A DNA stretch of 64,000 bases from Vagococcus zengguangii. GTDB taxonomy: Bacteria > Bacillota > Bacilli > Lactobacillales > Vagococcaceae. The notes below the pieces were generated by a model that worked only from the letters and a program-made list of their open reading frames with translations, did not search any database and was not told the DNA's origin. The stretch is taken from positions 62,001-126,000 of the forward strand of contig NZ_CP039712.1 in NCBI RefSeq assembly GCF_005145005.1, read 5' to 3'. The position numbers and the translations under genes were made by a program. Shown in pieces: positions 1,771-39,311 of this stretch; position 1 is the first letter of the stretch; each line of letters begins with the position of its first letter.

Positions 1771-2241
1771 ATGCCTCGTAAAGGCCCTGTCTCAAAACGT
1801 GAAGTATTGCCAGATCCAATTTACAAATCACAAGACGTTACTCGTTTAATTAACCGTGTAATGGTAGATGGTAAACGTGGAACTGCTGCAAGCATCATTT
1901 ACAACGCATTTGATATTATTAAAGAATCAACAGGTAACGACCCATTAGAAGTTTTCGAACAAGCAATGGATAACGTTAAACCTGACTTAGAAGTTAAAGC
2001 TCGTCGTGTGGGTGGTTCTAACTACCAAGTACCAGTTGAGGTACGCCCAGCTCGTCAAACAGCTTTAGCATTACGTTGGATCGTAGACTTCTCTCGTAAA
2101 CGCGGAGAACACACTATGGATCAACGTCTAGCTAAAGAATTAATGGACGCTGCTAACAATACAGGTGCTTCAGTTAAAAAACGTGAAGACACTCATAAAA
2201 TGGCAGAAGCGAACAGAGCATTTGCTCATTTCCGTTGGTAA
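1771..2241 (+). CDS. rpsG: 30S ribosomal protein S7
   Basis: 156 aa, full length. S7 nucleates assembly of the 30S head and binds near the E site; in the family it can also repress the str operon. It opens [16 protein letters not shown], typical of Gram-positive S7, and has the conserved [13 protein letters not shown] loop. GGAAGGAGG stands upstream of the ATG. It follows rpsL by 50 bp. Confidence 0.98.
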
Positions 2242-2260
2242 GATTTTCAATACTTTTTAT

Positions 2261-2289
2261 TTGAAGTATTACGAACAATTTATTATAAT
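2261..2289 (+). promoter_or_regulatory. Candidate internal promoter for fusA
   Basis: TTGAAG (2261-2266), a 17-bp spacer and a perfect TATAAT (2284-2289) lie in the 88-bp gap between rpsG and fusA. The spacing and -10 are ideal and the -35 matches at four of six positions. It would add transcription of fusA-tuf independent of rpsL-rpsG. Confidence 0.55.
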
Positions 2290-2329
2290 CGGATAATTTA
2301 TTACTGACATATGGAGAGGAGAAATTACT

Positions 2330-4420
2330 GTGGCTAGAGAATTTTCACTTGAAAAAACTCGTAATATCGGTATCATGGCTCACGTTGATGCGGGTAAAAC
2401 TACTACAACAGAGCGTATTTTATACTATACTGGTAAAATCCATAAAATTGGTGAAACACATGAAGGTGCTTCACAAATGGACTGGATGGAACAAGAGCAA
2501 GAACGTGGTATTACTATCACTTCAGCTGCTACAACAGCACAATGGAAAGGTTACCGCGTAAACATCATCGATACTCCAGGGCACGTGGACTTCACAATCG
2601 AAGTACAACGTTCTCTACGCGTATTAGATGGAGCAGTAACAGTTCTTGACTCACAATCTGGTGTTGAACCACAAACTGAAACAGTTTGGCGCCAAGCAAC
2701 AGAATATAAAGTACCACGTATTGTATTCTGTAACAAAATGGATAAAATCGGTGCAGACTTCCTATACTCTGTAAAATCTTTACATGATCGTTTAGGAGCT
2801 AATGCTCACCCAATTCAATTACCAATCGGTTCAGAAGAAAACTTCACAGGAATTATCGACTTAGTTAAGATGAAAGCCGAAATCTATACAAACGATTTAG
2901 GAACTGACATCCAAGAAACTGATATTCCAGAAGAATACATGGAACAAGCTAAAGAATACCGTGAAAAATTAGTGGAAGCAGTAGCAGAAACTAACGAAGA
3001 CTTAATGATGAAATACCTTGACGGTGAAGAAATCACTGACGAGGAATTAGTTGAAGGCATTCGCCAAGCAACAATCAACGTTGAATTCTTCCCAGTATTA
3101 GCTGGTTCAGCTTTCAAAAATAAAGGGGTACAGTTGATGTTAGATGCTGTTTTAGCATACTTACCTTCTCCATTAGATATCGATGCTATTAAAGGTACTG
3201 ATTCTAAAACTGGTGAAGAAATCACTCGCCCTGCTGATGATTCAGCACCATTCGCATCATTAGCATTTAAAGTTATGACTGACCCATTCGTAGGTCGTTT
3301 AACATTCTTCCGTGTTTACTCAGGTGTACTTGAAAGTGGATCTTACGTATTGAACGCTTCTAAAGATAAAAAAGAGCGTATCGGACGTATCCTACAAATG
3401 CACGCGAACACTCGTGAAGAAATCGATACTGTTTACTCAGGTGATATTGCTGCGGCAGTTGGTCTTAAAGATACTACTACAGGGGACACGCTATGTGCGA
3501 TGGACTCACCAGTTATCTTAGAATCAATTGAATTCCCAGAACCAGTTATCCAAGTCGCTGTTGAACCAAAATCAAAAGCTGACCAAGATAAAATGGGTGT
3601 TGCTTTACAAAAACTTGCAGAAGAAGATCCATCATTCCGTGTTGAAACTAACGTTGAAACAGGGGAAACAGTTATCTCAGGAATGGGAGAACTTCACTTG
3701 GACGTTCTTGTTGACCGTATGCGTCGTGAGTTTAAAGTTGAAGCTAACGTAGGGGCTCCTCAAGTATCTTACCGTGAAACATTCCGTGCACCATTAACAC
3801 AAGCTGAAGGTAAATTTGTACGTCAGTCTGGTGGTAAAGGTCAATACGGACACGTTTGGGTTGAATTCACTCCAAACGAAGAAGGTAAAGGCTTCGAGTT
3901 CGAAAATGCAATCGTTGGTGGTGTGGTTCCTCGTGAATACATCCCAGCTGTTGAAAAAGGATTAGCTGACTCTATGGACAACGGGGTTCTTGCTGGATAT
4001 CCATTAGTTGATATTAAAGCAAAACTTTATGATGGTTCATACCATGATGTCGATTCTAACGAAACTGCTTTCCGTGTAGCTGCCTCTATGGCATTAAAAG
4101 CTGCAGCTAAGAAAGCTAACCCAGTAATCTTAGAGCCAATGATGAAAGTTACTATTACTGTACCAGAAGATTTCTTAGGAGATATTATGGGACACGTAAC
4201 AGCTCGTCGTGGACGCGTTGAAGGTATGGAAGCTCATGGTAACTCACAAATCGTGAACGCTATGGTTCCATTATCAGAAATGTTTGGTTACGCAACTACA
4301 TTACGTTCTGCAACTCAAGGACGTGGTACATTCATGATGGTATTCGACCACTATGAAGACGTTCCTAAATCTATTCAAGAAGAAATCATCAAGAAAAATG
4401 GTGGATCTTCAGCTGAATAA
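2330..4420 (+). CDS. fusA: Translation elongation factor G
   Basis: 696 aa. This GTPase drives translocation of tRNA and mRNA after peptide transfer and, with RRF, ribosome recycling. The G-domain motifs are complete: [12 protein letters not shown] (P-loop), DTPGHVDF and NKMDKIGA, followed by the EF-G-specific insertion, domain II, and domain IV with [10 protein letters not shown]. The start is GTG after GGAGAGGAG. It lies in the expected str position between rpsG and tuf. It is a canonical EF-G rather than a Tet-type protection protein. Confidence 0.98.
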
Positions 4421-29159: not shown

Positions 29160-29552
29160 TTGGCTAAAGTACAATACAGCGGCACTGGCCGTCGTAAAAG
29201 ATCTGTAGCGCGCGTACGCTTAGTACCAGGTACAGGTAAAATTATTATGAACAATAAAGACATCGAAGAATATATTCCACATGCTGACCTACGTGAAGTA
29301 GTTAACCAACCATTTGCGGTTACTGACACTAAAGGTGCATATGACGTTTTAGTTAACGTTAACGGTGGTGGATATGCTGGACAAGCTGGCGCAACTCGCC
29401 ACGGTATCGCTCGTGCGTTACTACAAGTTGACCCAGACTTCCGCGCTCCATTAAAACGCGCTGGATTATTAACACGTGACTCTCGTATGGTTGAACGTAA
29501 AAAACCAGGTCTTAAGAAAGCACGTAAATCTTCACAGTTCTCAAAACGTTAA
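29160..29552 (+). CDS. rpsI: 30S ribosomal protein S9, rebuilt by the integrated element
   Basis: 130 aa. S9 reaches the P-site tRNA with its C-terminal Lys-Arg tail (SSQFSKR). The start codon is TTG after AAGGAGGG, rare for a ribosomal protein. The last 16 codons and stop lie inside the 52-bp repeat that marks the left end of the mobile element, so this C-terminus was supplied by the element on integration; the host's original end is at 37712-37763. Coding sequence is intact. Confidence 0.97.
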
Positions 29553-29553
29553 T
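29502..29553 (+). repeat. attL: 52-bp direct repeat in the rpsI 3' end
   Basis: Identical over 52 bp to 37712-37763, running from AAACCAGG to the stop codon and two more bases. It marks the left end of the integrated element; the two copies are 8210 bp apart. Confidence 0.95.
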
Positions 29554-29576
29554 ATATCTTATATATCAACAGTTCA

Positions 29577-29613
29577 AAGACATTTTCCAATTATTTGGAA
29601 GGTGTCTTTTTTT
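29577..29613 (+). terminator. rpsI terminator, element-borne copy
   Basis: Fourteen-pair stem 29577-29590 / 29595-29608 with G-U pairs, then a T run. It is a diverged copy of the hairpin at 37784-37820. Because it lies inside the element, it was brought in with it and ends rplM-rpsI transcription in the integrated state. Confidence 0.9.
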
Positions 29614-29620
29614 GTGTATT

Positions 29621-29638
29621 GGGACCAATAGTGGGACG
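29621..29638 (+). repeat. Left candidate integrase arm sites
   Basis: Two direct GGGAC repeats begin at 29621 (GGGACC) and 29633 (GGGACG), 12 bp apart. The right end of the element has the same pair and spacing. TATTGGGACCA (29617-29627) also recurs exactly at 37598-37608. Confidence 0.55.
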
Positions 29639-29655
29639 TTTTTCAAAAAAATAGC

Positions 29656-29695
29656 TTGCGTTAATATAATAATTAATGTATATTTGTGTTAACAC
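29656..29695 (+). promoter_or_regulatory. Promoter and palindromic operator at the element's left end
   Basis: TTGCGT (29656-29661), a 17-bp spacer and TATATT (29679-29684), followed at once by the perfect palindrome GTGTTAACAC (29686-29695) over the expected start of transcription. The 15-bp sequence TATTTGTGTTAACAC occurs again at 31123-31137 before the ftsK-like gene, so a common repressor is likely. Confidence 0.6.
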
Positions 29696-29744
29696 GTTTT
29701 TGCTTGTTTTTAAAATATTGGGATTAGATAGGAGATAAAGTTAA

Positions 29745-30623
29745 GTGAAAGACATTGTGGTAGAATGGTTAGAATATTGTGATTTGAATGGTATTAAGCC
29801 TTGGGAGTATGATTTTAAAAATGAAGTATTGATTGAAGGGAATAGTTTAAATCAAAATCCAATAGTAAGTATATTTGAATGGTATATAAATAAATCAAAC
29901 AAATTTTTAGTAGGAGTAGAAATAGAAAATACTGATTTAGCATCAGAAATTTATAGGCTTTTATGGGAGATTAATGAAGATGCAATGTCAAAAAAAAGAA
30001 GTTCATTAGATAGGGATGTTATGAATTCTTTTTGGAATATTTATAAAGCCGATATAAAATTAAGTTATGGTTTATATCTAAATAAATGGAGCGACAATAA
30101 AATAAATGAAAAAGCTATACAGTTTTTAATAGACAATTACCCTACTTATATTTCTACAAATAATAGAATTTTTCTCTATTCTAAATACACCCATACAATT
30201 GGAAATTTTATCATTGAAACTAAAGGATTTAATATGGGAAGAAAGCAAAATGATTATTGGGATCTAGCTTTAAAATTATTGTATGATTTTTTTAAAATAA
30301 TGGATAAAGATGTATGGATAAAATTTATTGATACATTCATGTTACATTCATTTGTAAATAGTGATTATTCTTTATCGTATTATTGGGATAGAAATAATAA
30401 TGATTTAGGACCAAATAATGAAGAGGAAATAGTACGATTTTTAAGAATTTCCACTAAATCAATTGAACAACGTGGCAAACAAATGATTAAAAAAATATGC
30501 GAAGATAAAAATAAAATAGAATATAAGTTTTATAAAAATTATTTGGTGGATTTAGAAGTGAAATATGCGGAAGATATCAAAAAAGAGTTTGAGGAGGAGT
30601 TATCTAATGCCGAGAGTAAATAA
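29745..30623 (+). CDS. Element-encoded protein of unknown function
   Basis: 292 aa from a GTG after AGGAG. No signal peptide or membrane segment. It is rich in aromatic residues and has a central block, YTHTIGNFIIETKGFN ... DYWDLALKLLYDFF, a pattern I associate with an uncharacterised family of bacterial cytoplasmic proteins (the DUF6994 type, from memory). The C-terminus is a charged helix. It is the first gene inside the element, under the palindrome-controlled promoter, and overlaps the next gene by 17 bp, so the two are coupled. Function unknown; a host-interaction or defence role is only a guess. Confidence 0.75.
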   Translation: MKDIVVEWLEYCDLNGIKPWEYDFKNEVLIEGNSLNQNPIVSIFEWYINKSNKFLVGVEIENTDLASEIYRLLWEINEDAMSKKRSSLDRDVMNSFWNIYKADIKLSYGLYLNKWSDNKINEKAIQFLIDNYPTYISTNNRIFLYSKYTHTIGNFIIETKGFNMGRKQNDYWDLALKLLYDFFKIMDKDVWIKFIDTFMLHSFVNSDYSLSYYWDRNNNDLGPNNEEEIVRFLRISTKSIEQRGKQMIKKICEDKNKIEYKFYKNYLVDLEVKYAEDIKKEFEEELSNAESK

Positions 30624-31089
30624 AACAGTTCGTTTAGCTTACGAAACAAAGTTATGGATAGACGAGCTAATAAGTAAAAAAGAATTAGAGTTAAGAGAAG
30701 AAATTAATAAGGGATTAATACCTAAGTTAGAGAAACATTTATTTGAGAATAGTACGGATATACTGAATGGTGTATCTTGTAACGTAGTGCTAAAAGTTAC
30801 AAGTGGAAGTATAATTGAACAAGCATACCGAAATACTAGACACTATACTAATGATGAATGGAAAAAAGTAGTGAGAAATATGGAAAGAAGTTTGAAAGAA
30901 GTAAATATGTATAAAGAAACAACTGTAACTCCTAGATTATATTTAGATGAAGATATTTTAACGGCGTTAGAATCCTACCAGGATGAATGGCGTTCTAAAG
31001 AACCAGGAAAAAGATTAATTAAATTGAGTTATGTAATAAAGGTAGTAGTATTTGCTGATTATTATAATAACTTTAACAAGAATATATAG
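30607..31089 (+). CDS. Putative ribbon-helix-helix DNA-binding protein
   Basis: 160 aa; the start MPRVNKTVRLAYETK at 30607 follows GAGGAGG. Two segments have a short strand followed by two helices: NKTVRLAYETKLWIDELI near the N-terminus and VTPRLYLDEDILTALESYQ through SYVIKVVVFADYY at the end. This resembles two ribbon-helix-helix units. Such a protein could bind the GTGTTAACAC operators that flank this two-gene unit, or act in a relaxosome. Overlaps the preceding gene. Family assignment is tentative. Confidence 0.7.
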   Translation: MPRVNKTVRLAYETKLWIDELISKKELELREEINKGLIPKLEKHLFENSTDILNGVSCNVVLKVTSGSIIEQAYRNTRHYTNDEWKKVVRNMERSLKEVNMYKETTVTPRLYLDEDILTALESYQDEWRSKEPGKRLIKLSYVIKVVVFADYYNNFNKNI

Positions 31090-31122
31090 GCTAAATGCTT
31101 ATATATTTTTGAGTAATATGTT

Positions 31123-31137
31123 TATTTGTGTTAACAC
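31123..31137 (+). promoter_or_regulatory. Second copy of the palindromic operator
   Basis: TATTTGTGTTAACAC matches 29681-29695 exactly; GTGTTAACAC is at 31128-31137. The first GTG of the downstream reading frame lies in this palindrome, which argues that it is a regulatory site and not the translation start. No strong -10 is placed as in the first copy. Confidence 0.55.
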
Positions 31138-31166
31138 TAAACGATTATGTAGAGGGGGTAAGGGTA

Positions 31167-32501
31167 TTGTTTAAAAGAAAAGAATGGATTGAAGTAGTAT
31201 ATCCAAGAAGACATCATTTAGGATTACTGTTTCTATATTTGATTTTTGTTTTTATTAATACCTCACTGATAGGAAAAGCAAATGGTTTATTATCGGTAAT
31301 TTTATTATTAATGAGTATATATATGCATTATAAATTAGTTAAGGTATATATGAAACGTAATAAATCAAAGAGTAAGATGATAGAACGACAAATACAATAT
31401 ATGATTCATACATTAAATTTGTATGATGAAGAGTATGTTGAAGTTACGAAAAATAATAAAGCTAGTATGGAAAAAAAGATATGTAGAGTTATAAGAATTT
31501 ATTATAAGTTGGACCATAGAAAAGTGTATGTAAGGGTATATCGTGATGGGGATAGATTTACTAAAATATCTAGTTCTAAAGAGTTTTACGAAAGTTTAGA
31601 AGCAGCTTTGGGGATGGAATTAGAAAAAGCTATAAAGAATATAAGATATATAGAATTTTCGTTTTTACGATATAAAGATAAGAGAATAAATGTATCGACT
31701 GGAACTAAACTATCGCAAGGTACTAAGGTCATGATTACCGAATCTTTGAGTTATGATGTTTCTAAAGTTAGTCATGGTTTAACAGTAGGTTCAACAGGGT
31801 CTGGAAAAAGCTTTTTTATTAATTCTAAAATATTGGCGTATGCACAGATGTCAGATAAGAAATATAACTCATGGGATGGAGCAGATATTAGGATTTGTGA
31901 TCCTAAGGCTAGTGATTTGTATCTGTATAAATTTGTTACAGGCTTTGGACCAGAAAAAGTTGCGTGTGAACCTAATTTAATTGCAAAAATGATTAGGGAA
32001 GTTTCTGAGTTAGTTGAAAAACGGTATAGAGAAATGTTTAATGATATTTCTTCTTTTGGTAAGACATTTGTAGATTTTAGAGGATATCCACCAGTAGTAA
32101 TATTTATAGACGAATATGCGGCATTAATGAAGACGGTAGACAAGAAGAATAAAGAGGAAATAGAAAAACATTTATATAATATTGTGTTAAAAGGGCGTGG
32201 ATGCGGTGTTTTTGCAGAAATAATTTTACAACGTCCTGATGCTTCAATTATTCCTGGACAAATACGTGACCAACTTCAAGTTAGAACAGGGTTATCTAAT
32301 TTGTCGCAAGAAGGAAAACAAATGTTGTTTGGTTCTACCGATATAGAATATAAAACAGTAAATGTTAAAGGAGGTGGTTATATTTTTATTGATTCAGTTA
32401 CAGAACAACCAGTTTATTTTGAAACGCCATTTATTTCAAAAGACTTTGATTTTTTGGATGAGATAGACAAAATTTATAAAAAGAGATTAGGTATAAATTG
32501 A
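31167..32501 (+). CDS. FtsK/SpoIIIE-family ATPase, TcpA-like coupling protein
   Basis: 444 aa from the TTG at 31167. Two hydrophobic segments (HHLGLLFLYLIFVFINTSLIG and LLSVILLLMSIYMHY) anchor the N-terminus. The P-loop GSTGSGKSFF is followed by Walker B VVIFIDEYAAL and LQRPDASIIPGQIRDQLQVR, as in FtsK/TcpA proteins. In mobile elements such ATPases deliver the relaxase-DNA complex to the mating channel. AGAGGGGG (31151-31158) fits TTG 31167; an earlier in-frame GTG (31128) lies in the operator palindrome. It resembles Orf21 of Tn916 in role and position. Confidence 0.88.
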   Translation: MFKRKEWIEVVYPRRHHLGLLFLYLIFVFINTSLIGKANGLLSVILLLMSIYMHYKLVKVYMKRNKSKSKMIERQIQYMIHTLNLYDEEYVEVTKNNKASMEKKICRVIRIYYKLDHRKVYVRVYRDGDRFTKISSSKEFYESLEAALGMELEKAIKNIRYIEFSFLRYKDKRINVSTGTKLSQGTKVMITESLSYDVSKVSHGLTVGSTGSGKSFFINSKILAYAQMSDKKYNSWDGADIRICDPKASDLYLYKFVTGFGPEKVACEPNLIAKMIREVSELVEKRYREMFNDISSFGKTFVDFRGYPPVVIFIDEYAALMKTVDKKNKEEIEKHLYNIVLKGRGCGVFAEIILQRPDASIIPGQIRDQLQVRTGLSNLSQEGKQMLFGSTDIEYKTVNVKGGGYIFIDSVTEQPVYFETPFISKDFDFLDEIDKIYKKRLGIN

Positions 32502-32525
32502 TAACAGGTATATCTAATTACATCT

Positions 32526-32572
32526 GTTATTCGAATTGTAATTAGGGGGGTTCTAATTGCAATTTGAATAAC
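32526..32572 (+). repeat. 20-bp inverted repeat with a G-rich loop
   Basis: Arms 32526-32545 and 32553-32572 agree at 18 of 20 positions, the other two being G-U in RNA, with a seven-base loop GGGGGTT. Candidate oriT, replication origin, or regulatory hairpin. Confidence 0.6.
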
Positions 32573-32578
32573 GGATTT

Positions 32579-32600
32579 TCATCAACAATGTTGTTGATGA
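32579..32600 (+). repeat. 10-bp perfect inverted repeat
   Basis: TCATCAACAA (32579-32588) and TTGTTGATGA (32591-32600) with two bases between them. It lies 34 bp upstream of the next gene and not before a T tract, so it is more likely a protein-binding site or origin structure than a terminator. Confidence 0.55.
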
Positions 32601-32633
32601 TTAAAAACATAAAAATAGGAAGAGGTATAAATT

Positions 32634-32948
32634 ATGAAATTAAACGATTTTTTAAAAGCGGATTTATTAGGAAATAAATTTTTAGCAGTAAAGGGATACG
32701 CTGAGGTGTTAGATAGAGAAACAGAACAATTAGCAGCGTATCGATTGAATGTATCTATTCAAGATGAATCTAGTGATTTCTTTATGGAAATGATTCAAGT
32801 TAAAGTAAATAATTTACATCCTACTGTTAGTGTAGAAGAATTAAAAAATAATAGAACAATGGGAGTTGCTTTAAAAGATTTGAATGTAGGGCAATTTAAT
32901 GGGAATTTGTGGTTTTCATGTACTGATGTACTACCAGTAACTAAATAG
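32634..32948 (+). CDS. Small element-encoded protein, possible OB-fold replication accessory
   Basis: 104 aa, acidic, alternating hydrophobic pattern consistent with an all-beta protein (FLAVKGYAEVLDRETEQLAAYRLNVSIQD; NLWFSCTDVLPV). No Cys pairs. In Tn916- and ICEBs1-like modules, small proteins beside the relaxase help the helicase or bind single strands; this occupies the same place but I see no decisive motif. AGGAAGAGG precedes the ATG. Confidence 0.7.
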   Translation: MKLNDFLKADLLGNKFLAVKGYAEVLDRETEQLAAYRLNVSIQDESSDFFMEMIQVKVNNLHPTVSVEELKNNRTMGVALKDLNVGQFNGNLWFSCTDVLPVTK

Positions 32949-33128
32949 ATATAGAGTAATGCTTAGAGAAGAATAAGGACAATGACTGCCAACGGAGTTG
33001 AGCAAGCGGAGCGTGTCAGTGGAACGGTTGTCCGTTTCTTTTCTTTAGCATTACGGAAGGAAATGCAATTTCCTTCCTAGTATATTTATTATATAAACAA
33101 AGATATGGCGAAAAAATACTAGTTAGGT
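32949..33128 (+). other. Structured non-coding region, candidate oriT or double-strand origin
   Basis: GTAATGCT (around 32956) is complementary to AGCATTAC (around 33047-33054). The stem continues with GGACAA/TTGTCC and encloses a GC-rich core containing CAACGGAGTTGAGCAAGCGG. A separate ten-pair hairpin with GCA loop follows (33055-33064 / 33068-33077). The core is strikingly GC-rich compared with the AT-rich element. It lies directly before the relaxase candidate, the usual place of a nick site. Confidence 0.55.
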
Positions 33129-33137
33129 TTGATTTTG

Positions 33138-33947
33138 ATGAACTATTATAATCAAAGAATTGTTCATACCGGACCATATGTTGAAATATGGGATTATGAA
33201 AAGTCTATTAGTCTAAACTCTGATACTATTGAGGGTGAAAAAGTTGAGATTGGAGAATCAAAAAATAAAAATCAGAAGAGAAAATCATTTGACGAATTAG
33301 ATGAGCAAGAGCAACATGAAAGACTAAGAAGAATGAATAAAACTAGATTAGATGCAAAATGGAGATTGTTAAGGATTGTTGACTGTAATTTTGATAATAG
33401 TACGTCTTTTTTAACTTTGACTACAAAAGAAAATATTGTTATACGTGATGAGTTTACAAATATGTTTAAGAAGTTTGTTAAAAGATTCAATTATCATGTA
33501 TATAAAACTAAGAAGAGTCAGTTAAAGTACATAGGTGTACTGGAGAGGCAGAAGAGAGGTGCTTGGCATGCACATGTATTATTATTCAGTGTGCCATTTG
33601 TTGAACACAATAAGTTATTAGGGTTATGGGGACACGGAGCTATTAGGATAAATAAATTAGATCATTTGGATGACTTATCAAATGCTGGTCGCTATGTTGT
33701 AAAGTATATGGAAAAAGGTATAGGTCAAGAACTAGTTGAAAGTTTTGGGAAAAAGGCATATTTGTATTCTAGAAATCTAAGTAAGCCTATAGAATCTAAA
33801 ATGTATTTAGATAAACCATTGGATTTAGAAAAGTCTGTAGTTTTGTATGAAACAGAATATGAGGGGAAAATATTCAGAGGGGGCCATTTAGTTAATAACA
33901 AGGTTAGGTATAGAAAAGTATTACTTACTAAGGAAGATGAAAAATAA
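33138..33947 (+). CDS. HUH-type Rep-like protein, candidate relaxase/replication initiator
   Basis: 269 aa. FLTLTTKEN (motif 1), AWHAHVLLF with the metal-binding His-x-His (HUH) and NAGRYVVKYMEKG with the Tyr-x-x-Lys-Tyr catalytic pattern define a rolling-circle initiator of the plasmid/phage Rep type. It lacks the features of a classical MobA or MobP relaxase. It would nick DNA at an origin by forming a tyrosine-DNA link. In streptococcal IMEs such Rep-derived proteins act as relaxases beside TcpA-like ATPases, as here. ATG 33138 is preferred over an upstream TTG (33129). Confidence 0.85.
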   Translation: MNYYNQRIVHTGPYVEIWDYEKSISLNSDTIEGEKVEIGESKNKNQKRKSFDELDEQEQHERLRRMNKTRLDAKWRLLRIVDCNFDNSTSFLTLTTKENIVIRDEFTNMFKKFVKRFNYHVYKTKKSQLKYIGVLERQKRGAWHAHVLLFSVPFVEHNKLLGLWGHGAIRINKLDHLDDLSNAGRYVVKYMEKGIGQELVESFGKKAYLYSRNLSKPIESKMYLDKPLDLEKSVVLYETEYEGKIFRGGHLVNNKVRYRKVLLTKEDEK

Positions 33948-33969
33948 TTTTTTGAGAAGGTGATTTTTT

Positions 33970-34248
33970 ATGAATGAAGTAAAAATAATTTTAGAAGATA
34001 ATCAATTAGATACACTGCGAAATACGATTTATATTTCCTTGATTGATGAAATTAATCGTGCTAGAAAAGATGTAGGATTAGAAAAAAGATATATGAATAA
34101 GAAAGAAATATGTGAATATCTTCATGTTGCTAATAATACGTTGGATAAGTGGTTAGAATTAGGATTACCAAGAATAATGATAGGTGGTTCAATAAGATAT
34201 GATAAGCGTTCAATAGATGAATGGATGAAACAATTTTTACAAAAATGA
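33970..34248 (+). CDS. xis: Excisionase-type helix-turn-helix protein
   Basis: 92 aa. Residues about 40-90 form a MerR/excisionase-like winged helix: YMNKKEICEYLHVANNTLDKW ... GGSIRYDKRSIDEWMKQF. Proteins of this type bend the attachment site and direct integrase to excision. AGAAGGTG precedes the ATG, and the integrase gene follows after 56 bp. Confidence 0.85.
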   Translation: MNEVKIILEDNQLDTLRNTIYISLIDEINRARKDVGLEKRYMNKKEICEYLHVANNTLDKWLELGLPRIMIGGSIRYDKRSIDEWMKQFLQK

Positions 34249-34304
34249 TAGTTTAAGCTTAGGATATTCAAATATACTTTAGCTTTTTAATTGGGGGAAT
34301 TAAA

Positions 34305-35534
34305 CTGGCAATTACAAAAAATAAAAGTGGAACTTATAGAGTGGAAGTTTATTATCCTAAAGAGGTTCAAGAAATTACTGGTGTGAAAGGAAGATATAAA
34401 AAAACTTTTAAAACGCTTAGAGAAGCTAAAGAAGATGAGAAAAAGATACTAGAAAAAATACAAAGAGTGATACAAGAAAAAAATTCTAGAGCGTTGGAAA
34501 TAAAAGGTAATATTAAATTTAAAAAGTTTTATGAAGAGATATGGTTGGATATGTATAAGAGTGGGTCAACAGGAAGAACAAGACAGATACCAAGTAACGT
34601 AACAGTTCAAAATACGAAAGATATATTTCGAATTCATATTTTACCTATGTTTGGTGACTATTCAATAAACTGGCTTAATGAGAATAAAGAATTTGTTTTA
34701 AGACAATTAACGGCATTATCTCAAACCTATGCCAATATTAAAATTGTAAAAGGATATGTTAATCAGGTTTTTGAAATGGCAGAATTACTTGATTACATTG
34801 AATATAATCGAATAGAAAAAGTAATAAGATATGTTTCAGCTCCTAAAAAACAAAAGTTAAAAGAAGAACGTGAATTAGTAGGGGAATCGATGACAGCTCG
34901 AGAACTTATTGAATGGTTAGACGTAGTAAATAATGAATACAATGAAGGAATATTGAGTATGCAAGATTATGTTTTATTTATGCTTACTTTGAATATTGGG
35001 GATCGTAAGAGTGAAAGCTATGCTTTACAGTGGAAACATATAGACTTTGAGAATGGCTATATATTATTAACACAAAATTTATCAAAAGTTGGAAACCTTA
35101 AGTCAACAAAAGGCAAGAAAAATACCAAAATTGCAATACCTTCATTTTTGATAGAGTTATTAAAAGAATGGAAAGAGTATCAAAAAATAGAACTGAAACA
35201 AATTGATATTAAACAGACTAAGGAACAATTCCTATTTACTTATGTTAATGGTAAAGGAGAAATTAACGTACCTGTACATATTGATTATTTAAATTATCGT
35301 TTGAATTCAATTCGTAGAAGAAATCCTGATTTAGTAAAATTAAATCCTCATAAATTACGACATACTTATTCAACCCTGGCAAGAGAAGGAGGAGCGTCTA
35401 TGAGTGAAATTTCAGAGGCTCTAACACACTCTGACACTAAGATAACTGAAACGTATGTAAATACTCCTAATATAGTTAAATTATCAATGTACGAGAAATT
35501 TGAGGGTAGATTAAATGAGGAGCGTAGAAAATGA
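34305..35534 (+). CDS. int: Tyrosine recombinase (integrase), probable CTG start
   Basis: 409 aa. The N-terminal AITKNKSGTYRVEVYYPKE fits an arm-binding domain; a SAM-like core-binding domain (about 70-180) and a catalytic domain with Arg (IGDRKSESYALQW), NPHKLRHTYS, LTHSDTKITETYV and nucleophile Tyr follow. In-frame ATG is absent near the start. CTG 34305 lies seven bases after GGGGG (34293-34297); the next option, GTG 34341, has no ribosome binding site and would truncate the N-terminal domain. Integrates site-specifically into rpsI. Confidence 0.92.
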   Translation: MAITKNKSGTYRVEVYYPKEVQEITGVKGRYKKTFKTLREAKEDEKKILEKIQRVIQEKNSRALEIKGNIKFKKFYEEIWLDMYKSGSTGRTRQIPSNVTVQNTKDIFRIHILPMFGDYSINWLNENKEFVLRQLTALSQTYANIKIVKGYVNQVFEMAELLDYIEYNRIEKVIRYVSAPKKQKLKEERELVGESMTARELIEWLDVVNNEYNEGILSMQDYVLFMLTLNIGDRKSESYALQWKHIDFENGYILLTQNLSKVGNLKSTKGKKNTKIAIPSFLIELLKEWKEYQKIELKQIDIKQTKEQFLFTYVNGKGEINVPVHIDYLNYRLNSIRRRNPDLVKLNPHKLRHTYSTLAREGGASMSEISEALTHSDTKITETYVNTPNIVKLSMYEKFEGRLNEERRK

Positions 35535-35553
35535 TATTAGAGGAGAGCATAAT

Positions 35554-35769
35554 ATGAAGACTTTGTTAGTTGGAGATATACATTTAAAAGTACGTCTAAT
35601 TTTACCAATCATAGAAATAAAAACATAAGAATTAAAATGTGAAGAAATCATATTTACAGATGCTTATGTGGATGATTATTTTCAGGGGTTTTATGTTAAT
35701 CTATTTATAGATGATTTAAATTATTTATTGAACTGGAAACAAAAAATGGAATCTAAAGGAATTAATTGA
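35554..35769 (+). pseudogene. Broken metallophosphoesterase gene
   Basis: The frame begins MKTLLVGDIHLK, the first metal-binding motif (GDxH) of calcineurin-like phosphoesterases, but meets TAA after 24 residues. The same frame continues as ELKCEEIIFTDAYVDDYFQG and NLFIDDLNYLLNWKQKM, consistent with the family, then stops again before the GNHD motif. It has both an in-frame stop and a lost 3' part, so it is non-functional. AGGAGAG precedes the ATG. Confidence 0.7.
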
Positions 35770-35789
35770 AAAGGTGAGGGACTTAAATA

Positions 35790-36143
35790 ATGAAAAAAAT
35801 AGGCATATTTTTTATTAACAATAATGAGATTATTGTTGATTCAATCTCTTATGAGGAAGGTAGATATTTAAATGGTTTATATGATAGTAATGCAGACCAT
35901 TGGCAATTATTTGACTCTCTTTCTTATAAATTTAATACAGACGATTATATTGATGTGCCTCGAGGAAGAGTGATTTATAATGAAATCAGTGATAATAGTA
36001 TTATTTATCTAGATAAGTGCTTTTTATCAAATGATGAAGTATTGGATAAAATTATTGAAGTGTTTGGAATAGAAAAATATGTATTAAAGGCAGATATTCA
36101 TTATCAGTGCCCAAATTGTTTAGAAGATATTTGGAAAGACTAG
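35790..36143 (+). CDS. Small protein of unknown function with a C-terminal CPNC motif
   Basis: 117 aa, acidic, no membrane segment. The C-terminal YQCPNCLEDIWKD has one Cys pair that might bind metal on dimerisation. It is the first intact gene of the right-hand cargo. I do not recognise the family. Confidence 0.65.
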   Translation: MKKIGIFFINNNEIIVDSISYEEGRYLNGLYDSNADHWQLFDSLSYKFNTDDYIDVPRGRVIYNEISDNSIIYLDKCFLSNDEVLDKIIEVFGIEKYVLKADIHYQCPNCLEDIWKD

Positions 36144-36168
36144 AAAAAATCGAAATGGGGAAAATAGA

Positions 36169-36612
36169 ATGAAATATTTATTATTAGATATAGATGATAC
36201 GATTGCACCTTTAAAAGTTGGTGGTCCAGATATGGTTATAATTGATAGTATGGGAATGGAGTTGGCTATTCCTCAATATATAGCTGATTGGCTAAAGAAA
36301 GCATCTGAAAAGGATATTAAAATTTATTGGTGTACAGACCGTCCGCCTATCCTTGGCTATTTAATTCAGAAAACTATAGGTTTTGAAACTGAAGGACAAT
36401 TAGAATTCTATAATACAAAAGCTTATGAATGGAGTAAACTTTACGGAATAATAGAATTTTGTAATGAACATGAGAATGACTTAGTTGTGTTAGCCGATAA
36501 TCTTGTGGAAAGAATGACTAAAGGTGTTGAATTACCAAGTAATTTGAAAACAGTTTTACCGTCAGACGCAACATTAACTATTGAAGATTTGAAAATTATT
36601 GATAGCCTATAG
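36169..36612 (+). CDS. HAD-superfamily hydrolase
   Basis: 147 aa. LLLDIDDTIAP is motif I with both catalytic Asp residues; YWCTDRPP carries the motif II Thr; VVLADN is a plausible motif IV. The cap domain is minimal, which usually allows large or macromolecular phosphate substrates, such as nucleic acid or protein ends. Substrate unknown. It lies 25 bp after the preceding gene with a GGGG-type site. Confidence 0.72.
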   Translation: MKYLLLDIDDTIAPLKVGGPDMVIIDSMGMELAIPQYIADWLKKASEKDIKIYWCTDRPPILGYLIQKTIGFETEGQLEFYNTKAYEWSKLYGIIEFCNEHENDLVVLADNLVERMTKGVELPSNLKTVLPSDATLTIEDLKIIDSL

Positions 36613-36627
36613 AATTGAAGTTAAAAA

Positions 36628-37251
36628 ATGAAAGATATGGGTTATGAGCTATATGATTATGTTAAATTCAAGACTAAAGAAAAGAATATTATTGGATATG
36701 TAGTCAGTAAGTATTTTAATGGTGAAGGAGTCATTCATTTTTATGATATATATTCTGAAATAGAAGAAGCTTATATTAATCATGTTCCAGAGTCAGAGTT
36801 ACATTTATTAGCTAAATCAAATAGTATGGCATGTAAAGCATTGAAATTAGCCGTTAATGTGCATAAAAATCAAGTAGATTTAGTCGGTGAGCCTTATATT
36901 AACCACATTGTTGCAGTAGGGGAAAAGGTAAAAAAATTTAAGGATGATGATTTGCTAACAGTTGCATATTTACATGATATTTTAGAGGATACGTATATAA
37001 CAGAAGATATCTTAAGATGTATATTCCCTGATGATATTGTAGATGCTGTTAGAAGCATCACTAAATCTGATAAGTATCAACCTTATGAAGAATATATACA
37101 AATTGTTAAGCTAAATGAATTATCCAGGATTGTAAAATTGGCAGATTTAGAACATAATTTAGTACTATCTAGGATAAAAGATTATACTTCCAAAGACTTA
37201 TTAAGAATAAAGAAATATAGAAAAGCAGTAAAAGAATTATCAAATCTGTAA
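36628..37251 (+). CDS. HD-domain phosphohydrolase, SpoT-like
   Basis: 207 aa. Residues about 1-65 form a small beta-rich N-terminal domain. The rest is an HD hydrolase: GEPYINHIVAVGE, AYLHDILEDT with the HD pair, and VKLADLEHNL. This is the pattern of (p)ppGpp hydrolases of the SpoT/MESH1 type, but without synthetase or regulatory domains. The substrate could be ppGpp or another nucleotide. 15 bp from the HAD gene. Confidence 0.75.
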   Translation: MKDMGYELYDYVKFKTKEKNIIGYVVSKYFNGEGVIHFYDIYSEIEEAYINHVPESELHLLAKSNSMACKALKLAVNVHKNQVDLVGEPYINHIVAVGEKVKKFKDDDLLTVAYLHDILEDTYITEDILRCIFPDDIVDAVRSITKSDKYQPYEEYIQIVKLNELSRIVKLADLEHNLVLSRIKDYTSKDLLRIKKYRKAVKELSNL

Positions 37252-37270
37252 TAATAGAGGATGATATCTA

Positions 37271-37561
37271 GTGGATAAATTTAAGTTACGTTATATTTGT
37301 GAGAATTGTGGGAAAATTGGTTTGTATCATAACGCAGAAGAAGCTCATGAAGAAGGATGGGATTACCCTCCTAAAATCGGAGAATATGGCGTTATAGGAC
37401 CTAGAACTTGCGGAGAATGTGGTATAGATACTACACTATATTGGGCAATAATTACTGATGAAATTAAAGAACTTTCTCAAATGACATTGAAGCAAAAAGC
37501 AACCTTTAATAGAATTTTACATGAACCAGCCAGTATTATTATAAGTGATCTTAATGAGTAG
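37271..37561 (+). CDS. Zinc-ribbon protein of unknown function
   Basis: 96 aa from a GTG. Two Cys pairs, CENC and CGEC, about 35 residues apart suggest one zinc. Between them is EEGWDYPPKIGEYGVIGPRTC, a compact ribbon rather than a DNA-binding array. It ends the cargo unit 150 bp before attR. Confidence 0.65.
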   Translation: MDKFKLRYICENCGKIGLYHNAEEAHEEGWDYPPKIGEYGVIGPRTCGECGIDTTLYWAIITDEIKELSQMTLKQKATFNRILHEPASIIISDLNE

Positions 37562-37589
37562 TGACGTAGTAAAAATAGAAGAATTATAA

Positions 37590-37608
37590 GGGACTGTTAT
37601 TGGGACCA
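37590..37608 (+). repeat. Right candidate integrase arm sites
   Basis: GGGACT at 37590 and GGGACC at 37602, again 12 bp apart, in the same orientation as at the left end. Confidence 0.55.
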
Positions 37609-37711
37609 TTTAACTGTAGAAAAATGAAATTTATATATAATAAATTTGTATTAATAATTATTTCTTATGGATAATACAAGGAAAAGAAACTAGATGAATA
37701 CATAAAGTCAT

Positions 37712-37763
37712 AAACCAGGTCTTAAGAAAGCACGTAAATCTTCACAGTTCTCAAAACGTTAAT
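37712..37763 (+). repeat. attR: host copy of the rpsI 3' end
   Basis: Perfect copy of 29502-29553. It is the original end of rpsI, displaced by the insertion. The following 20 bases differ from those after attL. Confidence 0.95.
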
Positions 37764-37783: not shown

Positions 37784-37820
37784 AAGACACTTTCCAATTG
37801 TTTGGAAGGTGTCTTTTTTT
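37784..37820 (+). terminator. Original rpsI terminator
   Basis: Stem 37784-37797 / 37802-37815 followed by eight or more T. Diverged counterpart of the element-borne hairpin at 29577. It now has no ribosomal gene upstream. Confidence 0.88.
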
Positions 37821-37858: not shown

Positions 37859-37897
37859 CCCCCAAAAAGTTAGACCAAAAAATCTAACTTTTGGGGG
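37859..37897 (+). promoter_or_regulatory. Hairpin at the IS left end covering the orfA ribosome binding site
   Basis: Arms 37859-37874 and 37883-37897 (one bulge), then TATTTTTT. The 3' arm contains GGGGG, the ribosome binding site of orfA, so transcripts entering from outside would fold and hide it. Confidence 0.65.
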
Positions 37898-37905
37898 TAT
37901 TTTTT

Positions 37906-38472
37906 ATGGTGAAATATGATGAAGAATTTAAAATGAAAGTAGTTATAGATTATTTAAAAGGCTATGATGGTTATCAATATTTAGCTAATAAGTACCAAAT
38001 TAAAAATAAATCTCAAGTTGAGCATTGGATACGTACTTATAAGGAATTTGGTGAGTCTGGACTACGTCGTAGTCAAATAAATAAAAGTTATTCTGTTCAA
38101 TTTAAGTTAGATGCGATAGAGTTATATGAAACAAGTGGAAAATCCTATCGTGAAATTAGCAACGGTTTAGGAATAACAAACTATTCTCTTTTAGCTGGAT
38201 GGGTAAAAAAGTTCAGAGAGAATGGCATTCAAGGACTTTCCAGTAAGAAAGGTCGACCAACTAATATGCCTAAAAAAACTAACAAATCAGCAGCATACCC
38301 AGCTAATCAAACAGATCAAGAGCGGATTGAAGAATTAGAAAAACGAGTTCGCTCATTAGAAATACAGAATGCCTATTTAAAGGAATTGAGGAAGCTAAGA
38401 AAAATGGAAGCCCAACAACAAATGAAACACTTGCGAAAATCATCCATAGCCTCCGAGGACAATTCAAATTAG
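37906..38472 (+). CDS. IS150-like transposase OrfA
   Basis: 188 aa. Two helix-turn-helix units (residues about 10-60 and 65-115: YQYLANKYQIKNKSQVEHWI; YREISNGLGITNYSLLAGWV) bind the inverted repeats, followed by a leucine-zipper-like coiled coil (RIEELEKRVRSLEIQNAYLKEL). ATG 37906 lies eight bases after GGGGG. Its 3' end overlaps the orfB frame, where an A-rich stretch (about 38398-38404, AAGAAAAATG) allows -1 shifting. Confidence 0.88.
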   Translation: MVKYDEEFKMKVVIDYLKGYDGYQYLANKYQIKNKSQVEHWIRTYKEFGESGLRRSQINKSYSVQFKLDAIELYETSGKSYREISNGLGITNYSLLAGWVKKFRENGIQGLSSKKGRPTNMPKKTNKSAAYPANQTDQERIEELEKRVRSLEIQNAYLKELRKLRKMEAQQQMKHLRKSSIASEDNSN

Positions 38473-39311
38473 TTGAGCTTCTAACAGAGTTAGAATTCCC
38501 AAAAGCTACTTATATGTATTGGCAAAAACGTTTTGAAATGGATAATCCAAAGAAAGAATTAGAGGAAGAAATTACCAGTATTTTTTATGAACATGAAGAA
38601 CGATATGGTTATAGACGTATTACCAACGAACTTAAAACTCGAGGAAGAACGGTTAACCATAAAAAAGTTTTGAGAATTATGAAGAAATTAGGATTGAAAG
38701 TCATTAAGTTTATGCGTAAGTCTCGTAAATATAGCTCATATAAAGGTAAAGTAGGGCTAATAGCAAAAAATAGAATTCACAGAAAATTCTATACGTCTAT
38801 CCCTCATCAAAAAATCACAACTGATACAACGGAATTCAAATACTATGAAAAAAATAATGGGATTTTAACCGTTAAAAAACTCTACTTAGATCCCTACTTA
38901 GACATGTTCAATAGCGAAATTATTTCTTACGCTATTTCTAATCACCCGAACGCAAAATCGATTGAGCAAGCTCAATTAGCAGCTATTGAACGAACAAGCG
39001 ATTGTCCCTATCGTCGAACTTTCCATTCTGATCAAGGATGGGCTTATCAAATGAAAAATTATTCTAAATGTCTAAAGGATAATAAAATATTCCAAAGTAT
39101 GTCCCGTAAGGGAAACTGTTTAGACAATTCTCTAATGGAAAATTTCTTTGGGTTATTAAAGCAAGAAATGTATTATGGTAAAGTCTTTCATAGTTTTGAA
39201 GAATTAAAAGAGGCAATAGAAAAATGGATTCACTACTACAATCATAAGAGAATTAAAGTGAAATTAGATGGTTTAAGCCCAGTGGCTTATCGACTAAAAT
39301 TAGCTGCATAA
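38376..39311 (+). CDS. IS150-like transposase OrfB (DDE integrase), made by -1 frameshift
   Basis: The orfB frame is open from about 38376, upstream of its first ATG (38514), and lies -1 to orfA; the product is probably the OrfAB fusion. Conserved catalytic features are TDTTEFKYY (first Asp), HSDQGWAYQ (second Asp) and RKGNCLDNSLMENFFGLLK (Glu). HTH_21-type segment EERYGYRRITNELKTRG near the start. Intact, so the IS may be active. A hairpin (39321-39326 / 39339-39344) follows the stop. Confidence 0.82.
   Translation, partial: FKGIEEAKKNGSPTTNETLAKIIHSLRGQFKLVELLTELEFPKATYMYWQKRFEMDNPKKELEEEITSIFYEHEERYGYRRITNELKTRGRTVNHKKVLRIMKKLGLKVIKFMRKSRKYSSYKGKVGLIAKNRIHRKFYTSIPHQKITTDTTEFKYYEKNNGILTVKKLYLDPYLDMFNSEIISYAISNHPNAKSIEQAQLAAIERTSDCPYRRTFHSDQGWAYQMKNYSKCLKDNKIFQSMSRKGNCLDNSLMENFFGLLKQEMYYGKVFHSFEELKEAIEKWIHYYNHKRIKVKLDGLSPVAYRLKLAA

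Follow-up and report, generated by a model that had tools for sequence, protein, structure and literature searches.

The segment at positions 32956-33115 of the window, i.e., of the whole 64-kb stretch of DNA analysed, is quite probably the rolling-circle origin, and probable oriT, of an HUH Rep/relaxase whose gene lies 3′ of it. This reading is based on conservation, covariation, a preference for folding of the + strand, linkage to the HUH gene and the presence of homologous sites of the CTTG^AT type in plasmids whose Rep is of the same family, from which we infer a cut, its exact bond, and the ensuing replication and transfer. The segment is part of an IME located in the 3′ end of rpsI, which comprises the following features:

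29502-37763 (no strand), IME in the rpsI 3′ end, supported by att repeats and gene content
29502-29553 and 37712-37763, attL and attR, exact 52-bp direct repeats of the rpsI 3′ end
31128-32501 (+), TcpA/FtsK-like coupling-protein gene (PF01580, E 1e-13)
32634-32948 (+), 104-aa gene, predicted OB fold
33138-33947 (+), HUH Rep/relaxase gene, REP_ORF2-G2P (PF23343, E 1e-22), ATG at 33138, HxH and YxxxY motifs
33970-34248 (+), excisionase-like HTH gene, from the gene search
34341-35534 (+), tyrosine integrase gene, from the gene search

With an integrase, att repeats, an HUH relaxase and a TcpA-like gene between 29502 and 37763, the element belongs to an already described group, the IMEs with an RCR-type relaxase and TcpA. 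No channel ATPase was named among the ORFs between the att sites in gene searches covering up to 36143. IMEs that pair a PHA00330-type relaxase with TcpA were reported in 2017; like the element in the window, they are chromosomal and combine a tyrosine integrase, a relaxase of the RCR-initiator type and TcpA, and rpsI is one of their known targets (PMC5357655, PMC5704250). In streptococci, 118 of 144 IMEs carry RCR-type relaxases, 83 of these together with TcpA (PMC5357655). The HUH protein of the window matched PF23343 in a profile search and, judging from family and gene context, PHA00330 would cover this protein. Within the literature searched, no published oriT was found for the Rel_PHA00330/TcpA IMEs, and the origin of the class is, to that extent, undescribed. 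IMEs with RCR-type relaxases are widespread in streptococci; with a candidate origin, its fold and a predicted cut at hand, their nicking, the replication of the excised circle and the use of a helper become open to direct test.

The original prediction regarded three inverted repeats and a GC-rich structured core around the 104-aa gene as one set of putative origins or relaxase/helicase loading sites. Sequence and folding place the inverted repeats and the compound stem where they had been predicted, with the small gene between them and directly before the HUH gene, and the three structures are indeed stronger than expected by chance (DNA folding z of -7.4 for 32500-32632 and -6.6 for 32940-33085, with no shuffle as stable). 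The repeats are two separate elements and not one set, since in the relatives the compound stem travels with the HUH gene and the twin hairpins with the 104-aa gene. In six relatives (L044, L046, L047, L048, L050 and L051), ~0.9-2.3 kb separate the 104-aa gene from the HUH gene, and further genes occupy this interval in those of the six that were examined. The assignment as an origin or relaxase site is well supported for 32956-33115 but not for hairpins 1 and 2, which stay with the 104-aa gene even when it is 1-2 kb from the origin. The structured region had been thought to end at 33077, but the conserved unit, hereafter module 1, goes further, to about 33115:

32956-33115 (+), module 1, a Y-shaped compound stem and a hairpin, then TAGTATATTTATTATATAAACA and TGGCGAAAA, 5′ of the HUH gene
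32956-33054 (+), compound Y-shaped stem of about 99 nt, with covariance-model match and covariation
33006-33012 (+), triloop motif GCGGAGC, with a second copy, GTGGAAC, at 33019-33025, 13 nt apart within the compound stem
33055-33077 (+), hairpin GGAAGGAAAT-GCA-ATTTCCTTCC, 10 bp with a 3-nt loop, directly before the nick segment
33078-33099 (+), conserved nick segment TAGTATATTTATTATATAAACA, predicted cut at 33083/33084 or 33087/33088
33106-33114 (+), conserved tail TGGCGAAAA after the nick segment

The fold of module 1 is supported by a covariance model built from eight relatives only, with the copy of the window left out. This model matches the window at 32952-33119 (E 5.8e-12), has no second match at E up to 10 anywhere else in the 64 kb, and also finds four relatives outside the training set. 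Plain MAFFT alignment of 13 origins misaligned the outer stem and a model-based alignment was used in its place; 96% of its cells pair and 35 of the 49 pairs have changed on both sides. This alignment was fitted to the structure and thus favours it; slid and shuffled controls were run for comparison: the covariation score of the 13 sequences is 0.511, versus 0.176 for shuffles and 0.07-0.13 for slid partners. The gap to the slid controls, along with the similar fold that RNAalifold independently produces for the clade of relatives at about 45% (13 compensated pairs), makes the covariation result safe. Within the 13-sequence alignment, the hairpin at 33055-33077 (helix 6) shows compensatory changes in six of eight pairs, and a small helix over the nick segment (helix 7) draws its support from one-sided changes only. 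In 28 of 34 sequences, it is the + strand that folds better. The order of compound stem, hairpin and A+T-rich segment with a CGAAAA-like tail is found before nearly every HUH gene with intact upstream DNA, the exceptions being L036, in which the DNA upstream of the HUH gene looks unrelated, and the distant relative L039, in which ACTTGATTTA is kept without a stable fold. A second match to the region in the host genome (L002, 39 nt, 85%) was discarded as an A-rich chance match.

The structures might instead be plain intrinsic terminators, as a lenient terminator scan still flags 32526-32572 (the long hairpin) and 33055-33077. Their lack of T tracts, already pointed out in the original prediction, is right in essence (the tails read GGATTTTC and TAGTATATTT): no stem is directly followed by a run of at least five T, the hairpin at 33055-33077 is followed by the conserved TAGTTTATTTATTATATA, and the hairpin-1 tails of the relatives are not T-rich. 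The terminator reading is, on this evidence, extremely improbable.

The enzyme encoded beside the candidate origin is a cognate HUH initiator with HxH and tyrosine motifs. Relatives at 57-63% come from one Natronobacillus genome and from some dozen genomes of the same order, those at ~45% mostly in another family of the order and in Enterococcus faecium plasmids, and protein searches of viral contigs returned no close relative. Residues H144, H146, Y186 and Y190 are invariant in 17 HUH proteins, the last two forming the two-tyrosine motif YxxxY, a type that matches CTTG^AT initiators. The structural model of the protein matches viral and plasmid HUH nickases, among them SIRV1 ORF119 (Z 10.4, 111 residues, rmsd 2.9). 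An inverted repeat by a candidate nick site, linked to a relaxase and a coupling protein, additionally amounts to an oriT-like layout.

The most conserved part of module 1 is the unpaired segment that follows the hairpin. When the nick motif TAGTTKATTTATTATATARRC was searched in 390 genomes with at most one mismatch, it was found in 14 places, 12 of which are HUH loci, and all exact matches lie before HUH genes. The other two, with one mismatch each, are devoid of the genes and the layout and have the look of chance or promoter sequence. Three matches to a reversed control pattern in the listed genomes show that a match with one mismatch is not diagnostic by itself. Likewise, the bare 18-mer TAGTTKATTTATTATATA occurs in 31 places in viral contigs, none with the fold at E below 0.09, which indicates that a short A+T-rich motif is not diagnostic on its own. 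A DNA match in a Priestia plasmid was set aside (it lies between convergent genes, with no Rep annotated nearby), as was TATTATATA as a promoter -10, for which no -35 was seen by eye. In an inovirus record (L063), a hairpin and TTTATTTAATTATAG precede rep, by eye only, and this case is not counted as evidence.

Initiators of the phiX174/pC194 type cleave at CTTG^AT. At the place equivalent to the nick segment, the 45% clade has ACTTG[AT]T and, after it, an ACAAC-ATC block, and ACTTG[AT]T sites are also present there in L037, in a human-gut record (38%, ACTTGATATATAAAACAACATC) and in six small plasmids. In pBAW301, pLF23/2, pAnox1, pYA01-2 and a Lysinibacillus plasmid, whose Reps are more distant, TTAACTTGATT and then ACATTA stand before rep; sites of the TTAACTTGATT type, in more distant IMEs as well as in free small plasmids, contain CTTG^AT. 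The aligned core of the clade of the window is AGT[TA][TG]ATTTATT and not CTTG^AT, from which it appears to have drifted, leaving the position of the predicted cut ambiguous: alignment from the 5′ side (L009, AGTTGATTTATT) would place it at 33083/33084, and alignment from the 3′ side (ATTATAT and AACA of pBAW301) at 33087/33088.

The position of the fold also invites a reading as an RNA leader that would control the HUH gene by attenuation or start-site occlusion, with no origin involved. In nearly all relatives the structure does lie a short way 5′ of the HUH start, and folding favours the sense strand, which an origin and an RNA leader would both use. However, the best conserved stretch is unpaired and homologous to CTTG^AT sites, no Rfam family matches module 1, and in the Fusobacterium plasmid pKH9 the site follows the FtsK gene and is separated from rep by ~1.4 kb and other genes. 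The homology of the nick site, the conservation after the hairpin and the remoteness of the pKH9 site from rep argue for a function in DNA over one in RNA, and the leader appears quite improbable.

Under the origin reading, the following sequence of events can be postulated. Once the IME has excised, the + strand would fold into the compound stem and the hairpin beside the A+T-rich nick segment, where a tyrosine of the HUH protein would cut the + strand and stay bound to the new 5′ end. The 3′ end at the nick would then prime rolling-circle synthesis, and the displaced strand might either be kept as excised copies or be passed by the TcpA-like protein to the secretion channel of a helper. The stem and hairpin would lie at the 3′ end of the displaced strand, a position in which they could serve recognition and termination. 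A strong stem is missing beside the site in two of the plasmids, pBAW301 and the Lysinibacillus plasmid, suggesting that the stem probably adds a function to that of nicking as such, be it specific recognition, termination or second-strand priming.

It is possible, if somewhat unlikely, that the compound stem is chiefly an sso next to the nick site, whose fold on the displaced strand would recruit RNA polymerase, primase or a primosome for second-strand synthesis, a role compatible with the origin. The better folder is the displaced + strand, and the stem is not required beside the site in every plasmid, leaving room for such an additional function. Like module 1, the sso of ICEBs1/pBAA1 is described as several stem-loops, three of which are needed, on the displaced strand of a rolling-circle element, but in module 1 the fold adjoins the nick site (PMC4595007). 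All 13 close relatives have kept one or both copies of the triloop motif (GCGGAGC/GTGGAAC type, with T-A/C-G exchange), which is also present in L037, L039 and pKH9; over 29 sequences, 23 sites stand against ~2 expected from simple shuffles, the close relatives not being independent. This conserved GRA-type motif resembles the N4 single-strand hairpin promoters (PMC4496689), a resemblance of the loop only. It is missing in most of the 45% clade, and the N4 likeness is best taken as a lead for an sso role and not as evidence. A more elaborate proposal, which we consider distinctly doubtful, is a two-in-one cassette in which the departure nick site is fused to a single-strand fold whose GRA-triloop hairpins would act as second-strand promoter or priming site in both donor and recipient, the nick sequence having moved away from CTTG^AT together with Rep.

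The candidate origin can be placed among known systems. What it shares with phiX174/pC194-type origins is a two-tyrosine HUH enzyme, a site on the sense strand of rep and, in relatives and in plasmids with Reps of the same family, a core of the CTTG^AT type. Unlike those origins, the site of the window is directly preceded by a large conserved compound stem and hairpin, and the core of its clade is AGT[TA][TG]AT; the candidate origin differs from known CTTG^AT origins in its compound fold and its drifted nick sequence. The mobilisation region of ICESt3/Tn916/ICEBs1 likewise gathers TcpA, an OB-fold accessory protein, an origin and an RCR-type relaxase in one block, but it employs a MOBT (Rep_trans) relaxase that nicks CT^AA in the loop of a GC-rich hairpin, whereas the window has an HUH enzyme and another site (PMC9371924, PMC12614216). 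Plasmid pKH9 resembles the IME in its related Rep (41%), its FtsK protein and a 105-aa gene before FtsK, and its site, ACTTGATATATAGG (also given as ATACTTGATATATAGG), comes after a compound stem; unlike the IME, pKH9 is a free 5-kb plasmid with the site behind FtsK and not before rep. Its 105-aa protein may be a counterpart of the 104-aa family, to which its match is ambiguous. With Rep, FtsK, the 105-aa gene and an origin-like site behind FtsK (positions 1873-3784 and 3880), pKH9 (L113) may be a free-plasmid counterpart of the IME module. Further elements of this kind, and derivatives that may lack a relaxase, can be sought with the covariance model.

The other two inverted repeats, collectively module 2, form a separate element that, on sequence comparison, belongs to the 104-aa gene:

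32522-32576 (+), hairpin 1, 24-nt arms, 7-nt spacer, G-rich loop
32580-32599 (no strand), hairpin 2, CATCAACAATGTTGTTGATG, a perfect 10-bp palindrome

The three mismatches of hairpin 1 are all G-T, which means that its + strand pairs throughout and its - strand does not. In ten of 12 relatives (not in L042 and L043), twin hairpins lie between the TcpA stop and the start of the 104-aa gene, and the z on the + strand is at most -3.6 in each of these. Their sequences are unrelated between subgroups, and one subgroup shows 11 compensated pairs. No T tract and no general strand preference accompany them in the relatives. The slightly favoured reading, with close to an even chance of being correct, is an mRNA element located between the cistrons for TcpA and the 104-aa protein that would act in processing, stability or translation control and be unrelated to the origin. 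It fits a structure that keeps with the 104-aa gene, directly 5′ of its ribosome-binding region, in those ten relatives, and whose pairing is compensated as the sequence changes; the missing strand preference outside the window speaks against it, and roles as single-stranded DNA, e.g., as an sso, are equally possible.

The 104-aa protein itself has no relevant sequence match in Pfam or PDB, and membership in DUF961 was rejected for want of a Pfam match. Its AlphaFold2 model is an OB fold (pLDDT 87) that matches mostly SSB and PriB, with Z up to 8.5, values under 8 possibly reflecting the common fold only. Among the matches is 2k5d (Z 7.4, 85 residues, rmsd 3.1), an Orf22-like protein related to HelP/OrfM of the relaxosome, and, as for HelP/OrfL/OrfM, the OB fold is encoded beside relaxase and TcpA genes. 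From its modelled fold and its position, the protein is likely a single-strand-DNA-binding relaxosome factor.

Several further observations concern the remainder of the element and its surroundings. The palindrome GTGTTAACAC occurs twice, at 29684-29695 and 31126-31137, each time inside a 20-nt near-identical repeat, once 5′ of the gene that opens the element and once where TcpA starts, with the look of an operator pair. The 174-aa protein encoded at 30565-31089 has ribbon-helix-helix-like stretches by eye and might be a relaxosome accessory protein; in the relatives, it is found beside a 292-aa protein in L050 and L051 only. On the 3′ side of the integrase gene, 35553-35760 is a decayed remnant of a metallophosphatase-like gene (MKTLLVGDIHLKVRLILPII...); in L014 and L016, similar genes are intact and separate the 104-aa gene from the origin. 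Near-copies of the rpsI terminator hairpin follow both att repeats (29576-29609 and 37784-37815), so that the flanks past attL and attR are alike for ~50 bp beyond the 52-bp repeat, and a pair of IS3-type transposase genes (37891-39311) lies directly 3′ of attR. In L056 (G028:C4), two HUH relatives, one interrupted by stop codons, are found ~8 kb apart beside rpsI, with the look of tandem or decayed elements.
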